Origin: an uncultured Erysipelotrichaceae bacterium
GTDB taxonomy: Bacteria; Bacillota_I; Bacilli_A; RF39; UBA660
Direction of reading: 5' to 3'
Length of the DNA stretch: 37,589 nt
Assembly: GCA_902780395.1 (NCBI GenBank)
Contig: CACZFH010000013.1
Span: 1 to 37,589, forward strand
Shown piece after piece: positions 10,750 to 29,977 of this stretch. Position 1 is the stretch's first letter; each line of letters opens with the position of its first letter. A program made the translations under genes and the position numbers. Below the pieces are notes generated by a model. It was not told the DNA's origin. It worked only from the letters and a program-made list of their open reading frames with translations, and ran no database searches.

Positions 10750-11379
10750 CTATTTTTTTCCAATATAATAAATCCCATTAGCCGTATGTCCATTCATTGT
10801 TGTATATTTTAATGTTTTTGTCTCTTCACACTTATAGTTCTTTAACAAATTAAAAAAGCTAGGCATGCTAAGATGTTTAAATATTCCTCCATCAACAGTC
10901 TCAAAAACACCATAGGATTTATATTTTTCTTTATACTCATCATATCTCTCTAAATACATATCAGATTGATTTAATAAGAAGTCATTTACATAGATTATTC
11001 CATCTTTTTTAAGAACACGATACAATTCTTTCATTAATCTCACTTGTTTTTCTTCTTCATGAATACAATTAAGTACAGCCACTAAAACAATAGAATCAAA
11101 ACTCTCATCATCAAAATTTAAAGTATCACCATCAATAAGATTAAAATCAATATAAGGATATATTTTTTTTGCCCTATAAATCATTTCACTAGAAAAATCT
11201 ACTCCTAACAAATTATTATAACCATGATCATACAATTCTTTTAATACTCTACCATATCCACATCCATAATCTAGTATTTTTTTATCTGAATCAACATATT
11301 TTTTAAATAAATCCATTTGAAATGGAGTATTAAATTTCTTTTCATTAGCAACCATATCCCAATAGTCTTTTTCGCTCAT
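10750..11379 (-). CDS. Class I SAM-dependent methyltransferase
   Basis: 209 residues. The AdoMet-binding motif I is KILDYGCGYGRVLKEL (about residues 34-49), followed by LLGVDFSSEMIYRAKK (acidic residue for ribose), an IDGDTLNF motif, LVAVLNCIHEEE and the VLKKDGIIYVNDF post-motif strand. This is a typical UbiE/type-11 methyltransferase domain; the acceptor is unknown. AGGAAGG precedes the ATG by five bases. It follows the terminator of the deaminase-like gene directly, so it probably uses the extended -10 at 11400. Confidence 0.88.
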   Translation of the reverse strand: MSEKDYWDMVANEKKFNTPFQMDLFKKYVDSDKKILDYGCGYGRVLKELYDHGYNNLLGVDFSSEMIYRAKKIYPYIDFNLIDGDTLNFDDESFDSIVLVAVLNCIHEEEKQVRLMKELYRVLKKDGIIYVNDFLLNQSDMYLERYDEYKEKYKSYGVFETVDGGIFKHLSMPSFFNLLKNYKCEETKTLKYTTMNGHTANGIYYIGKK

Positions 11380-12457: not shown

Positions 12458-14452
12458 ATGAACGATGAAGAAATTGTCCAAACGGGAAATGTAGATGTTG
12501 ATTTTAGTAATAATACAGAAATTCAAATTAATACTGAATCAGTAAATCAAGACTTAGACAGAAAAGATAAATCTGTAACAATAAAAGATAAAAATGGTCT
12601 TGAACAAAGAAGTAGTTCTATTATGATGGGTTATAACAAACAAGGCATAGTTTTAGCAGATGGAAGTTTTATTTCTGAAGAAGATATTGAAAAAGCTATT
12701 CAAGAAGAACTAAAAAGACAAGAACCAGGAACACTAATTGTTCACAAAAAAACATTCGCTCAAATTAATTTAGATAAATTATTTGAAATGATAAAAGAAA
12801 TATCCGGAGCTATTATAATAGAAGGAAAAAATCCTAATGTAAAAAATCAAGAATCTAGAAACTGGGGAGTACAAGGAAAAAATGGTGAAATAATAGACAA
12901 AGGAGTTGCTTTTTTAGGAAATAAAGGAATAGAATTATCCCCTGGTACATATGTAAGTCTAGAAGAAATTAGAAAAGCTTTAGAAGATTATATATACGCC
13001 AAAAAAGTACCAAAAAAAGGACCAGAACCTCCTAAGCCACCTCAAGGACCAGAATCGCCTAAGCCTCCACAAGAACCAGAAGAAGAACAAGAAATAATTG
13101 TCGCAAGAGTCGTAAGAAAATATAAATCCGGAGTAGCTGCCTTTTTAATACCTGTCATGATGTTTATTGGTGGAATAGATATAGATACTAGATATAAAGA
13201 AATAGTATATCAAAGAATTCTTACATCAGAAACAACAACCCAATCAGTTGATTATGATATTCATGGAGAAAATCATCGAAGAGAAACAGCAGAAGAAATG
13301 GTTGATAGAGCAATAAAAGAAATAGAAATGGGAGATAAAGTTCCTGTAAAAGATGGAGAAAAGTTTTATGTAAATAGTAACGAAACAGGTTCAAGTAAAA
13401 CAATGGGTGAAGAATTCAAAAAAGAAGGTAAAGAAGCCGGAGATTATCAAGTCACTGGATTTGCAATTGTAGTAAATGGAGAACCCATTGAATATATAGA
13501 AGACTTTAATGGAATAGATGATCAATCAAAATTAAAAGAATTTGTAGAGGAGACATTAATAAAACACAACCTAACAATCGATGATATTGAAATAAAAATT
13601 CACCTAGGATCAAACAAAGATGGTTCAAGATTAGGATGGATAGACATAACCGATTTAATCACCACCGATACTATTACTCCAGAATTAATCAAAGAAATAG
13701 TAGAAGATTATAGTGCTGGTAGTGGAACCATTACTGATTTTACAGGAGATACAATTACTTTATCAGATGGAACAACTATAAAAATCGTAGATGAAAATGG
13801 AAACTTTTTAAAACCAGGTACAGAAGTAACTGGCTCAGATAATCAAAAATATAGAATTGAAAAATTAGATGTTACAACTGAAACAAAAACAATTTCTACA
13901 CCTGAAGAGATAACAGAAAGTGTACCAGATGGAATAAAAGTAGAATGGAAACTAAATAACTTAGCTTTAGCAGCATCATTAGTAACTGCTCTATACGCAA
14001 TTGCTAATGCTCTAAGTACTTATAAGAAAAATAAAGAAAGTGAAGAAAATCCATCTTTATTTGAATTTGAAAATGAAAAACAATATATTGAATTCAAAAT
14101 AGAATTTAGAAAAGCCAAGAAAAAGTATGAAGAAGAATCAAAATTTGGCAAATTAATGAGAAGAGTCTTCATTGGAAAGAACACCGACATAATACAAAGA
14201 TTAACTCCTGAGCAAGTAAAAGAAGTATATGCTATTATAAAACGTCATTCAGGAATAGATTATATTATAGGTCCAAATGATAAAATAGAAATAAATGGTG
14301 GACAAATATATCTTCATTATGCCGATAAACATATACAAAATATTACTGACATAGTAATAGAAGAAATTTCCACAATCGGAAAAGAAAATCAAATAGACGC
14401 TGAAGGTCGTTTAGTAGAAAAGGATAATGAAAATGGAAATAATAGAAAATAA
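12458..14452 (+). CDS. Two-pass membrane protein with repeated N-terminal motif, function unknown
   Basis: 664 residues, no family recognised. The N-terminal region (1-222) contains two copies of a short motif: KQGIVLADGSFISEEDIEKA (about 61-80) and NKGIELSPGTYVSLEEIRKA (about 155-174). A Pro/Glu-rich linker (185-212) follows. The first membrane segment is about 224-241, a large region 245-498 lies on the other side, and a second segment is about 499-520. Lysines before the first and after the second segment suggest both ends are cytoplasmic and the middle domain outside. The middle contains GTITDFTGDTITLSDGTTIK, a small beta-rich unit. The C-terminal domain (535-650) is charged and helical. 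It is the first gene of a three-gene operon ending in a terminator at 14956. Confidence 0.75.
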   Translation: MNDEEIVQTGNVDVDFSNNTEIQINTESVNQDLDRKDKSVTIKDKNGLEQRSSSIMMGYNKQGIVLADGSFISEEDIEKAIQEELKRQEPGTLIVHKKTFAQINLDKLFEMIKEISGAIIIEGKNPNVKNQESRNWGVQGKNGEIIDKGVAFLGNKGIELSPGTYVSLEEIRKALEDYIYAKKVPKKGPEPPKPPQGPESPKPPQEPEEEQEIIVARVVRKYKSGVAAFLIPVMMFIGGIDIDTRYKEIVYQRILTSETTTQSVDYDIHGENHRRETAEEMVDRAIKEIEMGDKVPVKDGEKFYVNSNETGSSKTMGEEFKKEGKEAGDYQVTGFAIVVNGEPIEYIEDFNGIDDQSKLKEFVEETLIKHNLTIDDIEIKIHLGSNKDGSRLGWIDITDLITTDTITPELIKEIVEDYSAGSGTITDFTGDTITLSDGTTIKIVDENGNFLKPGTEVTGSDNQKYRIEKLDVTTETKTISTPEEITESVPDGIKVEWKLNNLALAASLVTALYAIANALSTYKKNKESEENPSLFEFENEKQYIEFKIEFRKAKKKYEEESKFGKLMRRVFIGKNTDIIQRLTPEQVKEVYAIIKRHSGIDYIIGPNDKIEINGGQIYLHYADKHIQNITDIVIEEISTIGKENQIDAEGRLVEKDNENGNNRK

Positions 14453-14726
14453 AGAATTTAATCAATTTATTGAAAAATACAAACAACTAGACTTAAAAGA
14501 TAAACAAAAAAATATAATTAGTTTACTGAAAGAAGATATTCTAGTACTTCAAAAAATTTTAGCAGATAATGATAAAGAAAAATCATATAAAATACTATAT
14601 AATAGAGAAATATTAGATGTAAATAATGAAAACTATACTGAAGATGATTTTTCAGAAGCTGTAATTGTATATCTTTATGCTATGAGAGAACTATTAGCAG
14701 AATTAATTGAAAAAGGAGGTTTTTAA
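14433..14726 (+). CDS. Small helical protein, function unknown
   Basis: 97 residues, mostly predicted helical and highly charged (KQLDLKDKQKNIISLLKED, then AVIVYLYAMRELLAELI). No family recognised, no membrane segment or signal peptide. It overlaps the end of the membrane-protein gene by 20 bases, indicating translational coupling. AAAGG at 14419-14423 is nine bases from the ATG at 14433; an in-frame ATG at 14427 is only three bases from it and is less likely. The next gene starts right after its stop. Confidence 0.7.
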   Translation: MEIIENKEFNQFIEKYKQLDLKDKQKNIISLLKEDILVLQKILADNDKEKSYKILYNREILDVNNENYTEDDFSEAVIVYLYAMRELLAELIEKGGF

Positions 14727-15021: not shown

Positions 15022-15588
15022 TTATATTATCTTATTATTAATATAATCATTTTGATATTTAGTAATAAAATCAATTAATTCTTCTTCTTCATCATAGATA
15101 TTTAAATATTTAAAAATACTATCATCATTAAAATTTAAAGATATATATTTATGAATAGCCTTTAATACATCTTGGTAATGATTATCTCTATTATAGATTA
15201 CAATTTTTTTTGAACATTTATCTGTACGTAATTGCTCTAAAAAAGCAAATATTTCAGAAGTTGTTCCAGTACCACCTGGCATAAAAAACAAAATATCACT
15301 TTCTTCATAGATACGCTTTGTTCTCATAAAAGTATCTTCTACATATTCAAAATCAACATAATTAAATTCTATAGGATCTTCATGATAGCATTCCATCGTT
15401 TTTAAATAAATTTTTCTATTATGATTTTTAAAACTACGTAATACTTCCCCACTCATCCCATCTTTCATAGCAGCACCAATTACTAAATCATAACCAACTT
15501 CTGCTAAAGCATCACTAAATTTTTTAGCGTCATTAAAATATTTAGAATCTATGTTTGTTCTTGAAGAAACAGAAAAAAATACATTCAT
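15022..15588 (-). CDS. LOG-family protein (possible nucleotide phosphoribohydrolase)
   Basis: 188 residues. The Rossmann-like fold carries the family signature MPGGTGTTSE (about 103-112), preceded by MRTKRIYEESDILFF, where the LOG/lysine-decarboxylase-like family places its conserved basic pair. Members cleave the ribose-5-phosphate from cytokinin-type or ordinary nucleoside monophosphates; the specific substrate is not visible. AGGAGGTGG precedes the ATG. It may be cotranscribed with the small membrane protein and HAD gene upstream. Confidence 0.85.
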   Translation of the reverse strand: MNVFFSVSSRTNIDSKYFNDAKKFSDALAEVGYDLVIGAAMKDGMSGEVLRSFKNHNRKIYLKTMECYHEDPIEFNYVDFEYVEDTFMRTKRIYEESDILFFMPGGTGTTSEIFAFLEQLRTDKCSKKIVIYNRDNHYQDVLKAIHKYISLNFNDDSIFKYLNIYDEEEELIDFITKYQNDYINNKII

Positions 15589-16570: not shown

Positions 16571-16578
16571 TACATACT

Positions 16579-16608
16579 AAAAAACTACTATTAATTATTA
16601 ATAGTAGT
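16579..16608 (-). terminator. Intrinsic terminator of the AAA+ operon
   Basis: A 12-bp perfect stem (ACTACTATTAAT / ATTAATAGTAGT, one-base centre, so the loop must open to a few bases) followed on the minus strand by six T. It starts two bases after the stop of the 260-residue protein. Confidence 0.75.
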
Positions 16609-16610
16609 AT

Positions 16611-17393
16611 CTAATTTTTAAATTTACACTTATTTAAATTAAGATTCTCATATACCCGCCTCCAATGACTATTATTCATAAACTTTTTCATTACTTTATC
16701 CTCATTTGAATAAACATAAATAGGAAAATAACTAGTACTTAGTGAATAATTTTCAAAGTTGTAAGTAAGAGAAATAGAATCTCCAAACATTTCATATTGA
16801 TATTTTGGTTTATATAGATTCAATGATTTAGCTAAATCATTTAGAGTATCGGGACTAACTCCGAAATTATTAGGTTCAAAAAATAAATATCTGAAAAAAT
16901 ATGGAGTTAATTTTTCAATATAATCAAGTGCTTCTCCTGTTATTATCCAGTGAAGAAGATTATTACCTTGATTATCAAATTGTTCATTAACATTAATATT
17001 ATACAGCTTAACAGCGTCATCCAATATTTTTAAATAATTATAAATCATATTACCAATACGCATATGAGATTGGAAAACACAATCTAAATATAACTGACCA
17101 TCTTTATTAAACTCATAAGGAGAAACATAATCAAAAATAAATGGCATAATATTATCATAATGATGACTCCCATCTAAAAAAAGTAAATGAGGTAAATAGC
17201 ACCCTGTTTCTTCATCCATTTTAGATAATGAATCTTTATTAAAATAATCTAAGAAAGTTTCCCTATTAATCTCAAACCTATGATGAGAAATAAAATATTT
17301 TTTCAATGTAGTCCGAGAAAAATCAACTTTTCCATTTCCTATTTGAACACTAACTGTCCCCTTATCCTTCCATACATCATTTTGTTTATCCAT
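16611..17393 (-). CDS. Unknown protein with an ankyrin-like stretch, third gene of the AAA+ operon
   Basis: 260 residues, soluble, family not recognised. A segment around residues 138-165 (NEQFDNQGNNLLHWIITGEA and the following helix) has the N-x-L-L-H-x-x-x-x-G pattern of one ankyrin repeat, perhaps with a degenerate second. The N-terminus contains the strand-rich GTVSVQIGNGKVDFS. The ATG overlaps the end of the preceding gene by eight bases (ATGGATAA), with GGTG just upstream, so translation is coupled. Its fixed place suggests a partner or substrate adaptor of the AAA+ ATPase; this is inference from context. Confidence 0.65.
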   Translation of the reverse strand: MDKQNDVWKDKGTVSVQIGNGKVDFSRTTLKKYFISHHRFEINRETFLDYFNKDSLSKMDEETGCYLPHLLFLDGSHHYDNIMPFIFDYVSPYEFNKDGQLYLDCVFQSHMRIGNMIYNYLKILDDAVKLYNINVNEQFDNQGNNLLHWIITGEALDYIEKLTPYFFRYLFFEPNNFGVSPDTLNDLAKSLNLYKPKYQYEMFGDSISLTYNFENYSLSTSYFPIYVYSNEDKVMKKFMNNSHWRRVYENLNLNKCKFKN

Positions 17394-18300
17394 AATTCAC
17401 CATATTCTTTCTCTTTTGAATATCAATATTTTGATATTTTTGATTTATTTTTTTAATTGCCCTTTGATAATCTTCTTTTAAATCTTTACCGTATATTCCT
17501 AGTTCATCAGGTGAAGAAATATAAATTATTTGATCAATATTTTTTAATTTTTGATAAGCTTCTAAAAATTCAATAGTTTCATGACACTTAGAAGGAATTC
17601 CATACCCACCTACCCATTCGCTAGACTTTAATGGCATTTTCTCCTCAGCTCGAAATAATAATCTTCTAAGAAAAGAAAGATTTACAAGAGGAAAATACAT
17701 CAATTTTAAATTTATTTTTTCATATTCTTTTTTTAATGGAACCTCTAAAAATAATGATTCAGAATAACTCTTCGTATGACTAAGATCAAAACCATAAAAG
17801 TTAATCTTATATCCTTTTTTTTCTAAATATTGAATAAGACTTAATACTATAATTCCTCTATTCTTAACAGCATTTTTTGAAGTATAAGCTTCATAAGAAT
17901 AATTCATATAAATATTGATTGTTGGGTCATCTTTAACAACATGATAAGAATGCATAGCTGCTGGAATATTCAATAAATATCTAGGTACACTAGGAAGAAA
18001 TCCAGAAACTGAATAATAGTTCTCCACCCTATCTTGAGAATCTATATAATAATTCAAAGAATCAAATTTATCGGCAAATTGAATAAATCCTTCACTCATC
18101 CCATAACGGCATAAGTTCCAGGCTTCCTCATAAGAATTAGTTTCAGTAAAATAATAATCTCTAGATTTGCTTGCCATTTTATCAACAAACATATAATTAA
18201 CGTTCTCATCTCTAACATAAAACAAAAAATCATCTAAACTATCAAAAGTTCCCACATAGACAGTAGAATTATGAAATTGAAAACATTTTTCTTTTGCCAT
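17386..18300 (-). CDS. VWA-like / DUF7192-like partner of the AAA+ ATPase
   Basis: 304 residues from the ATG at 18300, with AGGTGA six bases upstream. No signal peptide or membrane segment. The central part contains GFLPSVPRYLLNIPAAM, a NRGIIVLSLIQYLEKKGYKI stretch (strand-helix-strand as in VWA-type folds), and SEWVGGYGIPSKC near the C-terminus. This arrangement resembles phage and bacterial DUF7192-type proteins found beside MoxR/CobS ATPases; the assignment is by eye and tentative. MIDAS motifs (DxSxS) are not obvious. It starts nine bases after the ATPase stop and overlaps the third gene, so the three proteins are made together. Confidence 0.6.
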   Translation of the reverse strand: MAKEKCFQFHNSTVYVGTFDSLDDFLFYVRDENVNYMFVDKMASKSRDYYFTETNSYEEAWNLCRYGMSEGFIQFADKFDSLNYYIDSQDRVENYYSVSGFLPSVPRYLLNIPAAMHSYHVVKDDPTINIYMNYSYEAYTSKNAVKNRGIIVLSLIQYLEKKGYKINFYGFDLSHTKSYSESLFLEVPLKKEYEKINLKLMYFPLVNLSFLRRLLFRAEEKMPLKSSEWVGGYGIPSKCHETIEFLEAYQKLKNIDQIIYISSPDELGIYGKDLKEDYQRAIKKINQKYQNIDIQKRKNMVNYG

Positions 18301-18309
18301 AAATATCAC

Positions 18310-19971
18310 CTAATATTCTTTCGTACTAATTTTTTTTACTTTCTGTAAATAATTACAAAACTTATCTTCATAATAACCAGTTGATACTGTTTTATCTAAT
18401 TCATTTAATATAATTCTTAAATCTTCATTACTCATTCCCTGAGTAAGAGTAAAATCAAATATTTTATCTAAATCAAATAATTCATTAGAAATCATCTTAT
18501 CAGCGTTTACTATATTTCTTGTAGAAATAACTTGTCTAAGTCTATTATTTTCAATAATTTTCCTAATCTTCCAATATAATGGTAAAAAATCTTGATTAAA
18601 TACCAGATTCGATTCTAATGTATTATCATAATATATATAAATTGGCGTAAAACGATTTAAAGATGCCACATCTAACTGATTTCTACCACAATAGAGCATA
18701 TTAGCACCATTACCATATGTATTAGCAGCAGCAGCTATATGAAAATCAGCATGTTTAGGATAACATTTACCATCAGGAAAAGAAGCATATTCATGATATC
18801 CTGTTCCAACAGCAGAATTAATAGCTAAAAGTGCACTAGCATTAGATTGATCTAACTCATCTATCATGATAAAGCCACCCTTTGTAAAAGCTTCATAAAA
18901 TTGCGTTTTACAATAATGACCATTTGCATCTACAAAACCCATTACTTTATATTCTTCTGTTACATCATTAACATAATAGAATTTCCAATCCAAAATATCC
19001 GCAATTTGCTCAATAATTACATTTTTTCCACATCCAGCAGGACCAACCAATAATGGATTAAAACCAGCTGAAACTAATTTCAAAACATCTTCAAATTGAT
19101 GATGAAGAATTTTTGGTTTAGTAGTCTTCTTTTCCTTATTATCAATAACAATTGAAATCATCTTATAAGGAGTTTCCACCTTGGCTTTTTCTAAAGCTTT
19201 ATCAACAATCATATCAGCTAATTCTTCTTTTCTTTGTTCGATAGATTTCAAAGATTTTTCACATTCAACCTGAACTTTAGCCAACCTTTTTTCTTCTTCA
19301 AGAACAGCATCTTTAACATCATTTTTCAAGTCCCCTAATAATTTTTTAGCAGCCTCTGCTTCTGATTTTTGAAGTTTTTTAAACTTATTACATTCACTCT
19401 TTAAATTTTTTAATTCCTGACTAACACCATCATTAACCAGTTTATTTACTTTATTATGAATCTCTTTCATAAACTGAGATCCTTCATCGCTTTTCTTCTT
19501 TAAATAAGAGTATTCTTTTTCCAAAGAAGTGGCCTTTTTCTGAAGATCACTTTCTTTTCTCTCTAATTTTTGAAGAACATCCTCAATTTCTTGATTAATC
19601 ATATCCCTTTTTTTACTAATATCATCACTCTTGATATCTACTTTAGTATCTATACTTTCAATTTTCTCAAACATAGAAACCATTGAACTAGCAAATTCAT
19701 CATTAACATAAGGAAACACTTGAAAAGAATACATAGAATTCTGAAAAAACTCATTATTAGAAATAACTAAATGAATATTATCCCAAAGAAAAGCATCATC
19801 TGCTATTTTTTTTACAGAAGGTGGAATAACAACATAGCGACAACTCTCCCAATCATAAAATGCTTGTGAACCTATTTCACAAAAAACATTTGGAATTATA
19901 CAAGAAGATAAACTTTTACAAGTATCGACTTTATCACTAAAGTATTCTCTCTGTAAAGAATTATTTTTCAT
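18310..19971 (-). CDS. LRR/coiled-coil/MoxR-CobS-type AAA+ ATPase
   Basis: 553 residues from the ATG at 19971, with GGGGG four bases upstream. Residues 24-65 look like one or two BspA-type leucine-rich repeats (PNVFCEIGSQAFYDW, then PSVKKIADDAFLWD). A long coiled coil runs from about 110 to 265. The AAA+ domain (285-500) has Walker A GPAGCGKN (310-317), with Asn where Ser/Thr is usual, Walker B GFIMIDELDQSN (366-377), sensor AAAANTYG (414-420) and an arginine in ASLNRF (437-441). It is closest to the MoxR/CobS type, whose members remodel partners together with VWA-like proteins. Here the partner would be the next gene. A strong promoter and a LysR-type operator lie upstream. Confidence 0.82.
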   Translation of the reverse strand: MKNNSLQREYFSDKVDTCKSLSSCIIPNVFCEIGSQAFYDWESCRYVVIPPSVKKIADDAFLWDNIHLVISNNEFFQNSMYSFQVFPYVNDEFASSMVSMFEKIESIDTKVDIKSDDISKKRDMINQEIEDVLQKLERKESDLQKKATSLEKEYSYLKKKSDEGSQFMKEIHNKVNKLVNDGVSQELKNLKSECNKFKKLQKSEAEAAKKLLGDLKNDVKDAVLEEEKRLAKVQVECEKSLKSIEQRKEELADMIVDKALEKAKVETPYKMISIVIDNKEKKTTKPKILHHQFEDVLKLVSAGFNPLLVGPAGCGKNVIIEQIADILDWKFYYVNDVTEEYKVMGFVDANGHYCKTQFYEAFTKGGFIMIDELDQSNASALLAINSAVGTGYHEYASFPDGKCYPKHADFHIAAAANTYGNGANMLYCGRNQLDVASLNRFTPIYIYYDNTLESNLVFNQDFLPLYWKIRKIIENNRLRQVISTRNIVNADKMISNELFDLDKIFDFTLTQGMSNEDLRIILNELDKTVSTGYYEDKFCNYLQKVKKISTKEY

Positions 19972-20000
19972 AAAGCCCCCACTCTCACTCACCGATATGT

Positions 20001-20029
20001 ATTATAACAGAATAATTATCTAATGTAAA
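20001..20029 (-). promoter_or_regulatory. Promoter of the AAA+ operon
   Basis: Minus-strand TTTACA (20024-20029), 17-bp spacer, TATAAT (20001-20006) preceded by TG (extended -10). Transcription should begin near 19994. Confidence 0.75.
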
Positions 20030-20074: not shown

Positions 20075-20103
20075 TTGAATTTTAATAAAAAAAATAGTAT
20101 AAT
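20075..20103 (+). promoter_or_regulatory. Promoter of the LysR gene
   Basis: TTGAAT (20075-20080), 17-bp spacer, perfect TATAAT (20098-20103), 25 bases before the start codon at 20129. Confidence 0.7.
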
Positions 20104-20128
20104 AATCCCTACTTATTGGGGGGGTTAT

Positions 20129-21016
20129 ATGAATATTGATATTAATATAGAATTATTAAAAACTTTCTATATAGTAGCTAAATATAAAAATATTACAAAA
20201 GCTAGTAATGAATTATTAGTATCTCAATCTACTGTAAGTAAATCAATAAAAAATATAGAAGAACAATTAGATTGTCAATTATTTACAAGATCAAAAAAAG
20301 GAGTAGAACTAACAAAAGAAGGAGAAATACTATATAATTCAACTGAAAAAGTATTAAACATTTTAAATAATGATTTAAAGAAAATAACCAAAACAAAAAC
20401 AATTAATATATTAGTTGGAAAAGTATTAGCTGACAAAGTATTAGTTCCATATATTAATTTATTTCAAAAAAAATATCCTAATATTAAAATTAATTTGAGT
20501 TGTACAGATATAAAAGGAGTAAAAAGCAAATTAAAAAATGATGAAGTAGATATTGCCATAGGCTATTATATTGATGAATTAGAAGATAACTATGAACAAA
20601 GAAAAATAAGTCAAGAACTTCATCCAATATTTGTATGTAATAATAATTATAAAGAATTAATTAATAAAAAAATAAAAGTAAAAGAACTAGAAAAGTATCC
20701 TTATATTATAAGCTCTAAAGGAGCTACAACCTACCAATATGCCCTAGATTTTTTCCAAGAAAATAATCTAGATATAACACCTACTATGGAAATCTTAGGA
20801 ACTTCATTAATTACTCAATTAGTTAAAAATGGTCTTGGAATAAGTATTCTAACAAAAGAATTTATTGAGGAAGAATTAAAGAACCAAGAACTATTCGAAA
20901 TACAATTAGAAAAAGAATTAGAAACAAGACATTTAACTATCATAACTTATAAAAACAAGACGCTTAGTAAAGAAATTAATTATTTAATAGATTTATTAAT
21001 AAAAAAAGACAAATAA
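20129..21016 (+). CDS. LysR-family transcriptional regulator
   Basis: 295 residues from the ATG at 20129 (MNIDINIELLKTFYIV), with a GGGGGGG ribosome site; the longer in-frame ATG at 20075 lies within the promoter. The winged helix-turn-helix is residues 3-65 (KNITKASNELLVSQSTVSKS, then LFTRSKKGVELTKEG). The periplasmic-binding-protein-like effector domain (about 88-290) has VDIAIGYY and the VKNGLGISILTKEFI loop typical of the family. It is divergent from the three-gene AAA+ operon with an operator between them, so that operon is the probable target. The effector is unknown. The stop codon lies in a bidirectional terminator. Confidence 0.92.
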   Translation: MNIDINIELLKTFYIVAKYKNITKASNELLVSQSTVSKSIKNIEEQLDCQLFTRSKKGVELTKEGEILYNSTEKVLNILNNDLKKITKTKTINILVGKVLADKVLVPYINLFQKKYPNIKINLSCTDIKGVKSKLKNDEVDIAIGYYIDELEDNYEQRKISQELHPIFVCNNNYKELINKKIKVKELEKYPYIISSKGATTYQYALDFFQENNLDITPTMEILGTSLITQLVKNGLGISILTKEFIEEELKNQELFEIQLEKELETRHLTIITYKNKTLSKEINYLIDLLIKKDK

Positions 21017-21029: not shown

Positions 21030-21773
21030 TTATTCATCAAAGAGACGATGTTGCATAGCTAAAGGATTATCTAAATACATTTTATACAAAGAATAAATAT
21101 CCGTATCTTCATATTTTACTTCTTGAAAAGAATGATTTAAATCTAATATTTTTCCATCACGATAACTAATAAGAATAGGAGAATGAGTTGCAATAATAAA
21201 CTGACTACCATCTTTTACCAATTGATCAATTAAACATAATAATGATAATTGTCTTTCTGGAGATAATGCTGCTTCAGGCTCATCCAATATGTATAGTCCA
21301 TTTCCTTTAAATTTATTTTGTACTAATTGAATAAATGCTTCCCCGTGAGAACATTCATGTAAGTTACCTCCATAATAGGTATATAATTCAGGAAAGCCAT
21401 TTTCTTCTGCTATTCTTTCCATTTCTGTTGAAAAATTATAAAAACTTTCTGCCCTTAAAAAGAATTTCATTCTTGGCCTATTAAATGTTGCCACTCTAAG
21501 ATATTTTGATAATTCTGAAGTTGTATCTCTTGTTTCATACTGAAAATTTTCTGTTCCACCTTCTGGAGGCAATCCTAAAGCAACAGCTATAGCTTCAATA
21601 AAAGTAGACTTACCAACACCATTTTCTCCTACAAAAAAAGTTACAGGCGAATCAAAAGACAACTCTTTGAAGTTTTTTACAATTTCTATATTAAATGGGT
21701 ACCGATCAAAAGAATCAATTCTATCCCTCTCCAAAGTAACTTTTTTTATCATTAATTTAGAATTTAAACTCAT
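21030..21773 (-). CDS. SMC/ABC-type AAA ATPase (stand-alone, COG3910-like)
   Basis: 247 residues, soluble. It has Walker A FFVGENGVGKSTFIEA (about 46-61), a signature SHGEAFIQL, Walker B NGLYILDEPEAALSPERQ and an H-loop ATHSP. This is the set of single-chain predicted ATPases related to RecF/SMC, without coiled-coil arms. Their role is not well defined; DNA or RNP remodelling is possible. AGGTGA is four bases before the ATG. It is the last gene of the five-gene unit that begins with the ABC transporter, eight bases after the ADP-ribosylglycohydrolase-like gene. Confidence 0.85.
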   Translation of the reverse strand: MSLNSKLMIKKVTLERDRIDSFDRYPFNIEIVKNFKELSFDSPVTFFVGENGVGKSTFIEAIAVALGLPPEGGTENFQYETRDTTSELSKYLRVATFNRPRMKFFLRAESFYNFSTEMERIAEENGFPELYTYYGGNLHECSHGEAFIQLVQNKFKGNGLYILDEPEAALSPERQLSLLCLIDQLVKDGSQFIIATHSPILISYRDGKILDLNHSFQEVKYEDTDIYSLYKMYLDNPLAMQHRLFDE

Positions 21774-25404: not shown

Positions 25405-26379
25405 TTATATAACTTCTTTATCAGCTTGAATCTTCTTTCTTGCTCGATATAAACGAAACATTCTAAATCCAAAAGATAAAAATAAGAAAACAACAAATAT
25501 TCCCAACAATATTAAAGCCAACTTACGATATGAAAATGGCAATTGAAAAGAAGCTTTAACCTGACTTTTCTGAATAATCTGAGCTGGTTTTTCTTGCTCT
25601 TCAACTGCTTGCGTAATTTCTTTTTCACCAGTAGATTCAACAAGCTTTGTAAAAAGAATTGCTCTCTTATAAGATCCTAAAGAATCACAAGTAGATAAAA
25701 CTAATAATTTATCATCATCTACAACTTCTTCACCACTAAAATGAATAGAATTTTCCTTTAAAAAATTAATAATAATATGATTATATTGATTTTTAATACG
25801 ATATACATCAAAAACATAATCTTCCGTAGCTAATACAATAGCATAAGATATAATTTTAATATCATAAACAACATTTTCAGTGTAAAGAGTTCCCGTTAAA
25901 TGACTATTAAAGAATTCATCATCTTCAAATTTCTTAATATCTGTAAACATCATACCCGTATTAATATGATGCCCATATATAACTGAAAATTGATCACTAA
26001 AAAATCTATCATTACGATAATCTAAGAAAATACTACCCGTAGTAGCATATTCATGTAAATAATTTCTATCAAGGTAATCATCATTATCAATTCCTTGCAC
26101 AACAGGATAATCTATAGTAGTATCATCAATAGTAATCCATCCAACTATATCAGGATTCAACTCTTTCAAATCTTTTAAATAAAGAACTTCTTCAGAAGGA
26201 GCACTAACAATTTCCTCTTTATCAGGTTTTAAAGCCACCACTTCTTCAGGTAAAGTTCCACTCTTTTGAATTAAATAATTATCATAAAGAGCATAAATAC
26301 CAATTAAAATAAGCAATAAAAAAACAATGGTCATAATACGATCAATGATTTTATTGATAGTTTTTACAGTTTTATCCAT
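25405..26379 (-). CDS. Class B-type sortase with two membrane anchors
   Basis: 324 residues from the ATG at 26379 (MDKTVKTINK), the AGGTG ribosome site about nine bases upstream. N-terminal membrane helix (about 14-32), extracytoplasmic catalytic domain 65-250 with VIYGHHINTG (H137), VLSTCDSLG (C231) and YKRAIL (R239), the sortase triad; then a linker and a second helix (about 286-306) followed by basic residues. Class B features include WITIDDTTIDYPVVQ and the long stretch before Cys. It should cleave the sorting signals of the pilin and adhesin encoded upstream in the same unit and polymerise or attach them. Confidence 0.88.
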   Translation of the reverse strand: MDKTVKTINKIIDRIMTIVFLLLILIGIYALYDNYLIQKSGTLPEEVVALKPDKEEIVSAPSEEVLYLKDLKELNPDIVGWITIDDTTIDYPVVQGIDNDDYLDRNYLHEYATTGSIFLDYRNDRFFSDQFSVIYGHHINTGMMFTDIKKFEDDEFFNSHLTGTLYTENVVYDIKIISYAIVLATEDYVFDVYRIKNQYNHIIINFLKENSIHFSGEEVVDDDKLLVLSTCDSLGSYKRAILFTKLVESTGEKEITQAVEEQEKPAQIIQKSQVKASFQLPFSYRKLALILLGIFVVFLFLSFGFRMFRLYRARKKIQADKEVI

Positions 26380-26406
26380 TGTTTCACACACCTTTATTGA
26401 TATAAT

Positions 26407-26988
26407 TTAAAAATCTCTTATTTGTACTTGAAAAATAACTCTTCCTACAATTTCATCTTTTGAAATACTTCCAAACTTTCTAGAGTCATTAGTATCATTA
26501 CGATAATCATTCGTAACAAAGAATTCATCTTGAATAACTTTATAAGGATATTCTATTTTCTTAGAACTATTCTCCTCAGTATCATAAAATGTAACAGTAT
26601 TTTCTTGATAACCATTAATAAATAAAATATTATTTGCAATAGAAATAGAATCTCCACTAATACCAGTAATTCTATATACTTGATAACGATTATCTCTTTT
26701 TACAACTACTACATCGCCTCTAGTATAATTATGATCTAGACGATAGAATAATAATAAACTACCATCTTTGAAAGAAGGAAACATCGATTTTCCATTCATT
26801 CTATAAACACCAAATATTCCAAATATGAAGATACAAACTATAATAACTATAGTAAGGATTCTAGAAGTAAGAAGCAAAATACTATGACGATTTTTTTTCT
26901 TTTGCTGTACTTGTCGAGCAACAATATCTTCTTCAAATTCCAATATTTCTATTGTATCATCTAATTTTCTATTTCCCTTCTTACCCAT
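26407..26988 (-). CDS. Signal peptidase I-like protein of the fibre locus, Lys position changed
   Basis: 193 residues; AGGAGG precedes the ATG. A cytoplasmic basic tail is followed by a membrane helix (about 38-60) and the S26 domain. MNGKSMFPSFKDG carries the nucleophile Ser68. The segment that normally reads YxKRxxGxxGD reads YQVYRITGISGD, so the expected general-base Lys is Tyr105. The box-E region VTNDYRNDTNDSRKFGSI is good. The canonical enzyme at 36478 keeps both Ser and Lys. Pilus operons often encode such a divergent peptidase, sometimes acting as an assembly chaperone; whether this one cleaves is uncertain. Confidence 0.85.
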   Translation of the reverse strand: MGKKGNRKLDDTIEILEFEEDIVARQVQQKKKNRHSILLLTSRILTIVIIVCIFIFGIFGVYRMNGKSMFPSFKDGSLLLFYRLDHNYTRGDVVVVKRDNRYQVYRITGISGDSISIANNILFINGYQENTVTFYDTEENSSKKIEYPYKVIQDEFFVTNDYRNDTNDSRKFGSISKDEIVGRVIFQVQIRDF

Positions 26989-27003
26989 AATTCCTCCTAA
27001 AGA

Positions 27004-27033
27004 AAATAAACTGCTAACAATAGCAGTTTATTT
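27004..27033 (-). terminator. Strong hairpin between pilin and signal peptidase genes
   Basis: A perfect 12-bp stem (AAATAAACTGCT / AGCAGTTTATTT) with a six-base loop follows the pilin stop by two bases. The minus-strand tail TCTTT is not a full T run. It may act as a partial terminator or RNA-stabilising structure that keeps pilin mRNA above peptidase and sortase mRNA. Confidence 0.6.
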
Positions 27034-27035
27034 AA

Positions 27036-28118
27036 TTAATTTGCCTCTGCTTGAGATAAACGTTTGTTAATATAAATACCTACAATTGCTAAACTAATTA
27101 ATATAATAAATGGTAAAACATTTACGAAAATACCAGTTAAAACATCAGATTGATAATTATTTACAAAAGAACATACGTTATTTGCATTAAAATCTGGATC
27201 ACTTGGATCAACAGTAGTTTTCGTTAATGTTTTAGCATTATTAGAACCTCCATCAATATAAGTACTATATTCTAAAGCACCATTTTCAGTAATAGTATAA
27301 GTTTCTCCTACTGGGATTTCATATGCTCCTCCAGAAGTCAAACCAATAGTAACTGATTGTCCATGTTTCAAATAAATTGTCGTTGTAGTACCAACAGTAT
27401 AAGTAGAAGAATTTACAGTAGTTGTACCATTAACAGAGTGATCACCTAAAACAGTATAAGTATCTCCATTATTTCCAGGTAGAGTAACAGTAAATGCAAA
27501 ATATTGATCCTTTTCAGCTAAATTACCAGTAACTCCATTAGATAAAGTAATATAAGTTAAACTAGATCGAGATGTAAATACCATATTAGATACTTTTGTA
27601 CCACCATCATCAGCAGGTTGAGCAACTAAAGTTGCAATCTTATTTCCTGTAGGTACATTATTTCCATCAACTTCATATCTAACAGATACATAGATAGAAT
27701 AAGAAGTACTATCATCTACTGGATAAAGAGTAGCATTAGAAGATGCTGTTTCTTCTACAATAAATTCATAATCTCCTACTTCATCAAATTGTAAAGTAGA
27801 TAAATCAATTGTTGCAGTTTGAGTAGCAACATTATTTACAGGTGCAACATTATTAAACACAATGTTTACATTTGTATAATCAAAAGGTGTTGTTCCATCA
27901 GTTGTAACGATTCCTGGATTATAATCTCCAGCTTGTACTTGATAAGTGAAAGTATTAGTTACATTATTAGTAACTCCTTGCACCTCACGAGTAACAGTCC
28001 ATGTTTGAGTACTACCACTATTGGCAGCAATTGTTGTTGTAGCAGCTTCTGCTTTAACAGTAAGCATAGCAACCATAACTACAATAATAGATAATATAAG
28101 TTTATTTAATTTTTTCAT
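27036..28118 (-). CDS. Pilin-like surface protein with Spy0128-type domains
   Basis: 360 residues. Signal peptide 1-25 (KLILSIIVVMVAMLTVKAEA, cleaved near AEA-A). Two beta domains follow: the first (about 30-180) has the Spy0128/FctA pattern with GDYEFIVEETAS, the second (about 188-318) has VTGNLAEKDQYFAFTVTLPG and YTITENG, a DUF7601-like unit; both carry Lys/Glu/Asn positions suitable for isopeptide bonds, which cannot be proved here. The C-terminus is DVLTGIF, a hydrophobic helix and KRLSQ: a sorting signal in which LPxTG is replaced by xVLTG. Thr-rich. Its ATG overlaps the adhesin stop by four bases. Likely the main fibre subunit. Confidence 0.85.
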   Translation of the reverse strand: MKKLNKLILSIIVVMVAMLTVKAEAATTTIAANSGSTQTWTVTREVQGVTNNVTNTFTYQVQAGDYNPGIVTTDGTTPFDYTNVNIVFNNVAPVNNVATQTATIDLSTLQFDEVGDYEFIVEETASSNATLYPVDDSTSYSIYVSVRYEVDGNNVPTGNKIATLVAQPADDGGTKVSNMVFTSRSSLTYITLSNGVTGNLAEKDQYFAFTVTLPGNNGDTYTVLGDHSVNGTTTVNSSTYTVGTTTTIYLKHGQSVTIGLTSGGAYEIPVGETYTITENGALEYSTYIDGGSNNAKTLTKTTVDPSDPDFNANNVCSFVNNYQSDVLTGIFVNVLPFIILISLAIVGIYINKRLSQAEAN

Positions 28119-29977
28119 ACATCATACTCCTTCTTACTTTTATTCCTATACCCTATAATAATAATGCCACTAATACTAATAAATATCAAGAGGTAAAATG
28201 GCATTTGACATGTAAATATTCCAGTTAATGGAGATCTTTCTTTATTATTTACAAAAGTAACAACATTATCTGTAGCCGCAATCGTACCTGATTGGGTTGA
28301 CACAGTAGGTAAATAATCATTATCATCGATTTCTTCAATTGTATAATCAGTACCTACTGGTATATCCTTAATAGTAACATCATTTAAGCTAGACACTTGA
28401 ACAACAGCCTCTCCAGAAGCATCAAAAACCAATGGATTTGCTTGAACATTACTACCAATATAATAAGTAAAGCTTTGGTTTAACGGAATAGATTGTGTAC
28501 TTAAAGTAATTTTAAAGCTAAACTCTTCTCCTACCTCAGCCAAGTTTCCTGTCACTTGTTTACTAATCACTAAATCAGCCCTAGCATCCAAAACCCATTG
28601 TGCCGTATAAGTAACATCAGCTGTAACTGTAGAACTAAATACTGGACTCCAACCAACAAAAATATAACCATTTCTAGTTGGCGTCCCAACAAAGCTAGGT
28701 GTAGGAGAGCCTTCTGCAACATCATTATAAACTTGATCTTGAAATAAAACCGTACCATTAACTCCATCAGTATATGTAACAGTATAAGTAGGTAAAATTA
28801 AAGTAAATGGATCATCCCAAGTACCAGTACCACCAATTAGTTCAGTATCATCTTTTAAATACAAAACAGGTCTAAACACCCTAGAAGTATTAACTCCATA
28901 ATTTGTTAAAGAACCATTTGAATTTAAACAATACGCAGCCGTCTTATAACGAGTATTAGGTGTCATAGTCCATTGAACCAAATTCATTACTCGATCTGAC
29001 TCACTAGCAGCATTAGCATTAGCTACACTTCTCATCCAGTTATTATCAACACAATCAGTATTAATGCTCAATGCAGTCATATCATAAGATGTAAGACAAT
29101 TACTACGACTAGTAGTATCAATACCAGATGTTGCATACCCATAATCACTAGGATACATCAAACCTATCTTTCCTATCCATCTAACAGAATTATCAGCATT
29201 ATTAGTCGTACTTCCTCTCTCCGCAGCATAAAAGGTTGCTACAGTTTTATTTGAAGCATTAGCAGCTATTCCTGCAGTTCCCCATGTAGTCTCCGCAATC
29301 ATACCTTGATAAACAGGATCAATAGAAGCAAAATTACCTGTTGTTGTAGATTTAAACCCACCGTTAGTGACACGAGCAGGTAAATAAATAGTTCCACCAT
29401 TATAATAACTACCCATATTTCGGAAAATATTAACTCTATTAGCAACAACATAATTATCGATATTAGAAGAAGCATTAATAGTATAAGCATGAGTAGCTGT
29501 ATTGTCTGTTTTAAAACCTGTATTGATATAATCTGTAGGATTCATCATCATCATAATTTCAGCATCTGACCACTCAGAGCTACCAGAACTAGTAGAGGAT
29601 CCTACTCCATTATTCTTATAATCATAAATACCTGTAAACAAAGCTTCATCTTTAATTAGTTTTACAAGTCTTTTTCCAGTTTGTCCATGGGAATCAGCAT
29701 CAAATAATCCAATAATTCTCCATTTTTCACCATTAAAAATAATATAATTGCAAGGATTTGCACCAACATAACGAATATTATTAGTTCCATTATTATCATA
29801 AGCTACGGTATTAGTACAAGTTCCAACCGTTCCAGTATTAATAACATCAAATGAAGATGAATTACCACCAGTTGCTAAACTAATTATATAATCATCAATA
29901 TTCTCATAAGCATTAACAGAAAAAGGCAACAATAAAAGAGAAAGAATGAATATTATAATAAAATACTTATTCTTCAT
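28115..29977 (-). CDS. Sortase-anchored multi-domain adhesin
   Basis: 620 residues, first gene of the fibre unit; AAAGGAGG precedes the ATG. Signal peptide 1-23. Residues about 60-385 look like a DUF6273-type domain (YIIFNGEKWRIIGLFD, then a C-terminal VFRPVLYLKDD). A Listeria/Bacteroides Flg_new/InlB-type repeat follows (about 395-465, ending GYIFVGWSP and YTAQW). Next a DUF7601-like domain (VTGNLAEVGEEFSFKITLS to TFVNNKE) related to the second domain of the pilin. The C-terminus is SPLTGIF (582-588), a membrane helix and KSKK: a variant sorting signal with PLTG. Probably the tip or minor fibre component. Confidence 0.85.
   Translation of the reverse strand: MKNKYFIIIFILSLLLLPFSVNAYENIDDYIISLATGGNSSSFDVINTGTVGTCTNTVAYDNNGTNNIRYVGANPCNYIIFNGEKWRIIGLFDADSHGQTGKRLVKLIKDEALFTGIYDYKNNGVGSSTSSGSSEWSDAEIMMMMNPTDYINTGFKTDNTATHAYTINASSNIDNYVVANRVNIFRNMGSYYNGGTIYLPARVTNGGFKSTTTGNFASIDPVYQGMIAETTWGTAGIAANASNKTVATFYAAERGSTTNNADNSVRWIGKIGLMYPSDYGYATSGIDTTSRSNCLTSYDMTALSINTDCVDNNWMRSVANANAASESDRVMNLVQWTMTPNTRYKTAAYCLNSNGSLTNYGVNTSRVFRPVLYLKDDTELIGGTGTWDDPFTLILPTYTVTYTDGVNGTVLFQDQVYNDVAEGSPTPSFVGTPTRNGYIFVGWSPVFSSTVTADVTYTAQWVLDARADLVISKQVTGNLAEVGEEFSFKITLSTQSIPLNQSFTYYIGSNVQANPLVFDASGEAVVQVSSLNDVTIKDIPVGTDYTIEEIDDNDYLPTVSTQSGTIAATDNVVTFVNNKERSPLTGIFTCQMPFYLLIFISISGIIIIGYRNKSKKEYDV

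Follow-up and report, generated by a model that had tools for sequence, protein, structure and literature searches.

What is the task of three tightly packed genes, a MoxR-type AAA+ ATPase and two partners, in an uncultured bacterium? The question is raised by positions 16611-19971 (minus strand) of a 37,589-nucleotide stretch of DNA from an uncultured Erysipelotrichaceae bacterium (contig CACZFH010000013.1), here called the window, for which an initial annotation made from the letters alone had proposed a chaperone, stress or anti-phage machine. The answer I favour, with a probability of roughly 0.6, is that the trio specifies a single remodelling machine of MoxR type, with a VWA-like co-chaperone and added recognition modules.

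The first gene (18310-19971) encodes the 553-aa ATPase, starting at the ATG at 19971, with a GTG at 19992 as alternative start, and ending with the stop at 18310. The second (17386-18309) encodes a DUF7192 protein of 307 aa if read from its GTG; its likely start is the ATG at 18300, which leaves 9 bp after the ATPase stop. Its end (stop at 17386) shares 8 bp with the start of the third gene (16611-17393, ATG at 17393), which encodes an orphan protein of 260 aa. The spacings of 9 and -8 bp and the minus strand given initially are therefore correct, and the promoter and the terminator proposed for the trio both have candidates. Upstream of the ATPase gene lies a promoter-like site, TTTACA-17-TATAAT (20001-20029, minus strand), sigma-A-like with an extended -10, which matches at 11 of 12 consensus positions and is the top-scoring among 31 such sites, where shuffles yield 28.8; its assignment is by consensus only. 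Directly 3' of the last gene, a hairpin followed by U6 (16573-16608, minus strand; -11.9 kcal/mol, fold z -2.9) is a probable intrinsic terminator, and as it is A+T-rich it is missed by a GC-based terminator scan. The flanks hold a HAD hydrolase, a LOG-family protein, transporters and a divergent LysR-family regulator (20075-21016, plus strand; domain match) that might possibly belong to the trio; no phage genes were recognised there. LysR genes are found near the trio in other genera too, and LysR, metallophosphatase, LOG-family and a conserved 'MASF...' protein are recurrent neighbours across genera (loci L120, L160, L162 and L198, window 15022-15588 and 20075-21016), the 'MASF' homologue in L120 lying immediately 5' of the ATPase. 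Elsewhere in the window are a plus-strand pair of genes for 664 and 99 aa without convincing family match (12458-14726), and a pilus-like cell-surface cluster of sortase, signal peptidase and DUF7601 surface-protein genes (25408-29977).

At its N-terminus the ATPase shows a short BspA-like leucine-rich region (LRR_5, 2.8e-6, residues 18-84) of only about two repeats, followed by a charged, proline-free stretch (88-267) that is coiled-coil-like from about 93 to 265, and by an AAA+ core at about 284-530 (AAA_5, 2.6e-7; phrog_249, 1.2e-49). The motifs GPAGCGKN (310-317), FIMIDELD (367-374), N417, R430/R440 and R485 are conserved in the alignment of the ATPases (A6), in which the features of the MoxR clade, Walker A and B (G310-N317, D371/E372), sensor 1, arginine finger and sensor 2, are invariant, and the segment GFVDANGHYCKT appears to occupy the expected position of the helix-2 insert (H2i). 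Judged by its sequence, the protein is a MoxR-type AAA+ ATPase with intact catalytic motifs. The Walker A ending in N, 'GKN', was initially called unusual; it is present in 73 of 98 relatives, and is the rule of this ATPase clade rather than an oddity.

The second protein matches PF23822 (DUF7192) with an E-value of 1.9e-27 and 96.8 bits, far over the curated cut-off of 27, and phrog_1909 with 7.8e-36. No paper on DUF7192 was found in the literature searched. A structure model built from 46 sequences reached a mean pLDDT of 90.3, and among 350,542 PDB chains just four matched it with E < 1e-3, all of them NorD VWA domains in NorQ complexes (best 2.8e-5, probability 1.00). A second structure aligner concurs with a modest Z of 8.1 to NorD VWA (211 residues, rmsd 5.7), followed by the MIDAS domains of Rea1/MDN1 (Z 6.3-7.1), so that the Rossmann-like fold of a VWA domain is recognised in the model, at that modest Z. 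However, the intact metal-binding motif DxSxS (MIDAS) is missing; the window protein reads NYSYE at 136-140, and the first position is D in 14 and N in 21 of the 46 sequences. Because of this degenerate motif I term DUF7192 VWA-like, not a canonical VWA domain. Given the predicted fold and the near-invariant pairing with a MoxR ATPase described below, the protein most likely serves as a VWA-like co-chaperone whose metal site has degenerated, in line with the resemblance to VWA-like partners that had been suspected from the outset.

The third protein has no family match in profile searches, and no effector or enzymatic domain was found in it. Its model is weak (mean pLDDT 60.7, pTM 0.54), and nearly all top matches in a structure search with it are ankyrin folds, with scores within the chance range for repeat folds. 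Weak Ank_4 matches (0.027-0.036) occur in two members of the third-gene family and none in the window protein, there are weak Notch-ankyrin matches, and the motif DNQGNNLLHWIITG agrees with an ankyrin-like reading. For the ankyrin-like stretch seen initially the support is weaker than for the VWA-like partner, and the protein is probably an ankyrin-like adaptor according to this low-confidence model. The gene is the fastest-evolving of the trio and is tandem-duplicated in two genera.

Whether the three genes belong together can be judged from their distribution. The order ATPase, DUF7192, third gene is contiguous at 10 loci, the window included, in at least four genera of one gut Bacilli family: G059 (the rumen MAG RUG14143), the rabbit-gut Bacilli MAGs L120-L124, where the ATPase of L124 is truncated at the contig end, genus g242 (L160 and L162), G602 and the window. 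The third gene of G602 is divergent and was recognised only through profile comparison (hhalign, 4.7e-9). In a census of the family, the full-length LRR-type ATPase is present in 8 of 386 genomes, and the third gene in the same 8, seven by clear HMM matches and the eighth by profile comparison; two further genomes with weak third-gene matches (E about 1e-3) were left out of the count. Among 392 genomes searched across the phylum, the third gene is absent except in the genome of the window itself, which also holds two additional ATPase-DUF7192 pairs without it. All genomes examined are drafts from uncultured bacteria. Purifying selection acts on all three genes: Nei-Gojobori dN/dS is 0.06-0.33 where ATPase and DUF7192 are concerned, and the third gene has values of 0.27-0.52. 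As the trio is present in about 2% of the family genomes, it is not a core function. The initial annotation had named a lack of co-occurrence, or scattered phage remnants, as what would speak against a module of an AAA+ ATPase with two coupled partners; instead, the genes are conserved, contiguous and under selection, and the AAA+ motifs intact. The trio is a real, conserved and ordered module, of a MoxR-VWA kind that is already known, in a version that is new.

Among the other readings, the one that survives best, though unlikely, is a conflict system, in which a MoxR-vWA ternary switch would restrain the third protein, as effector or sensor, until a phage or stress cue in the style of VMAP or iSTAND. 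A MoxR ATPase and a vWA-type partner with a dedicated third component do fit the plan of the MoxR-vWA ternary systems, whose third components are VMAP, iSTAND, FtsH or beta-propeller proteins (PMC7159879), the distribution of the trio is patchy, and its third gene evolves fast and duplicates. However, none of these domains, nor any effector domain, is present in the three proteins, the bpMoxR score of 13.1 bits is well under the cut-off of 27, and in one genus the trio keeps its place beside spo0A and genes of glycolysis in a conserved synteny. Its PADLOC matches are of coiled-coil type only (best E 0.005), no defence island was found around it, and no phage genes adjoin it, so the anti-phage role suggested at first has nothing in its favour here except the overall layout of ternary systems. 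Apart from the trio, the window encodes an OLD/AriA-like ATPase of 247 aa that stands alone, with no nuclease (21033-21773), and, at 10750-11379, a short protein whose PADLOC match is mad2-like (3.5e-17); no complete defence system was seen.

Less probable again is a role in sporulation or spore-envelope assembly, with a protein of the coat or envelope as the target of remodelling. The trio lies immediately 5' of spo0A at four loci of one clade (Spo0A_C, 3.5e-40), and that of L123 immediately 3' of cotJB-cotJC (CotJB 6.5e-24, Mn_catalase 1.1e-49). However, these four loci are relatives of one another with this synteny in common, no such neighbour is seen in the window or in other genera, and the promoter-like sequences are of sigma-A type by eye. 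Moreover, Spo0A is present in 108 of 117 family genomes and the trio in about 2%; with Spo0A nearly universal, its adjacency is a neighbourhood lead only, and its presence, equal to the family baseline, was dropped as a sporulation signal.

The same core pair is abundant in phages, including staphylococcal Herelleviridae and an Enterococcus cecorum phage, as phrog_249 (labelled 'porphyrin biosynthesis') and phrog_1909 (DUF7192). In a sample of 80 viral contigs carrying a relative of the ATPase, DUF7192 accompanies it in 77, mostly within 150 bp, which bears out the initial remark that such proteins occur near such ATPases in phages; in the other three the ATPase lies at the end of the examined stretch. 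Two DUF7192 alignments gave no match in viral scans, although scans with the ATPase did, which reflects a limit of the pattern search and not absence, and plasmids, searched with the ATPase only, gave one weak partial match. The third gene was found neither in the 80 contigs nor in the phages and viral collections searched. A maximum-likelihood tree of AAA+ cores unites all 10 trio ATPases in a single clade (98/85), separate from the viral copies and next to two other chromosomal lineages; the root is a midpoint root, so that the direction is not fixed. Being outside the phage clade, the module is chromosomal, and a prophage remnant, as had been considered initially, is rejected on account of the separate clade together with the purifying selection.

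It is likewise improbable, more so than the two readings above, that a pair from a phage has been domesticated and is today the assembly chaperone of a host complex, be it phage-derived or unrelated. Its abundance in phages would fit, as would the virion assembly proposed for a phage MoxR-vWA pair; according to work cited in PMC7824862, phages and archaeal viruses use pairs of MoxR and VWA, like that of the trio, as chaperones whose clients belong to virion assembly, and jumbo phages have a fusion of the vWA with a metallopeptidase. However, the position of the trio clade next to chromosomal lineages and the lack of the third gene in the viral collections searched argue against it. The least probable reading, a metal or cofactor insertase in the strict CobS/NorQ sense, can draw on NorQ, CbbQ and CobS as nearest named relatives (the phrog_249 label; CbbQ_C, 0.0016 in L120) and on the resemblance of DUF7192 to NorD VWA, but the ATPase scores 14.4 bits against the CobS cobaltochelatase cut-off of 558.55 (TIGR01650), the MIDAS is degenerate and no metalloenzyme adjoins the trio.

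Other arrangements of the pair were also observed. In two family genomes (L177 and L192) the pair falls among the viral copies in the tree and probably belongs to prophages. Another chromosomal MoxR-DUF7192 lineage (L010:7511-12037, L023, L026, L027 and L028) regularly has a conserved gene of 430-470 aa (A11) 5' of the pair, a second three-gene plan; the A11 gene from L010, the one tested, has no Pfam match. A comparison of this gene, which lies 5' of the C4-type ATPase, with the N-terminal domain of the C26-type ATPase (A12) led me to reject the latter as its fused form (hhalign E 0.69), and neither A11 nor A12 resembles the third gene of the trio. A larger, stress-type cluster lies in L022:4790-13375 (G060), where TelA (PF05816, 1.4e-18) is accompanied by a gene for 402 aa, a MoxR-DUF7192 pair, a second AAA ATPase and a protein whose VWA motif is of the classical DxSxS-like type.

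The remodelling machine that I prefer has its closest parallel in NorQ-NorD, a MoxR AAA+/VWA chaperone for cNOR in which the VWA partner sits inside the ring and is twisted by ATP hydrolysis (PMC13036017). As there, a MoxR ATPase stands beside its partner, and among PDB structures NorD VWA comes closest to DUF7192. In contrast to NorD, which has a MIDAS, a long N-terminal domain and a linker, the MIDAS of the trio is degenerate; its ATPase has an LRR and coiled coil, there is an extra ankyrin-like gene, and there is no cNOR. Judging from its fold and conserved arginine finger, the ATPase would form a hexameric ring, on which DUF7192 would dock as NorD does on NorQ, as its fold, strict linkage and co-conservation suggest. 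By analogy, ATP hydrolysis would then move the docked DUF7192. The ATPase, through its LRR and coiled coil, and the third protein, ankyrin-like and in a presumed adaptor role, may supply protein-binding arms that select and hold one dedicated client, which would be remodelled, assembled or released; with the metal site degenerate, client binding probably proceeds without a classical MIDAS metal.

A more specific version can be offered only tentatively. In it, the AAA+/VWA-like machine would be of a new kind, its LRR-armed MoxR ring and its co-chaperone without MIDAS having in common an ankyrin adaptor that evolves fast, duplicates and directs the machine to different clients. The bacterial family would then have several chromosomal lineages of MoxR-DUF7192, the trio among them, and every lineage would have an accessory part of its own.

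With the main reading, DUF7192, a family with no assigned function and many members in phages, those of Staphylococcus among them, would gain a testable role as the VWA-like co-chaperone of MoxR, and the role of the phage 'CobS-like' ATPases would become testable as that of a two-protein system. Bacteria would use the same core, with recognition modules added.
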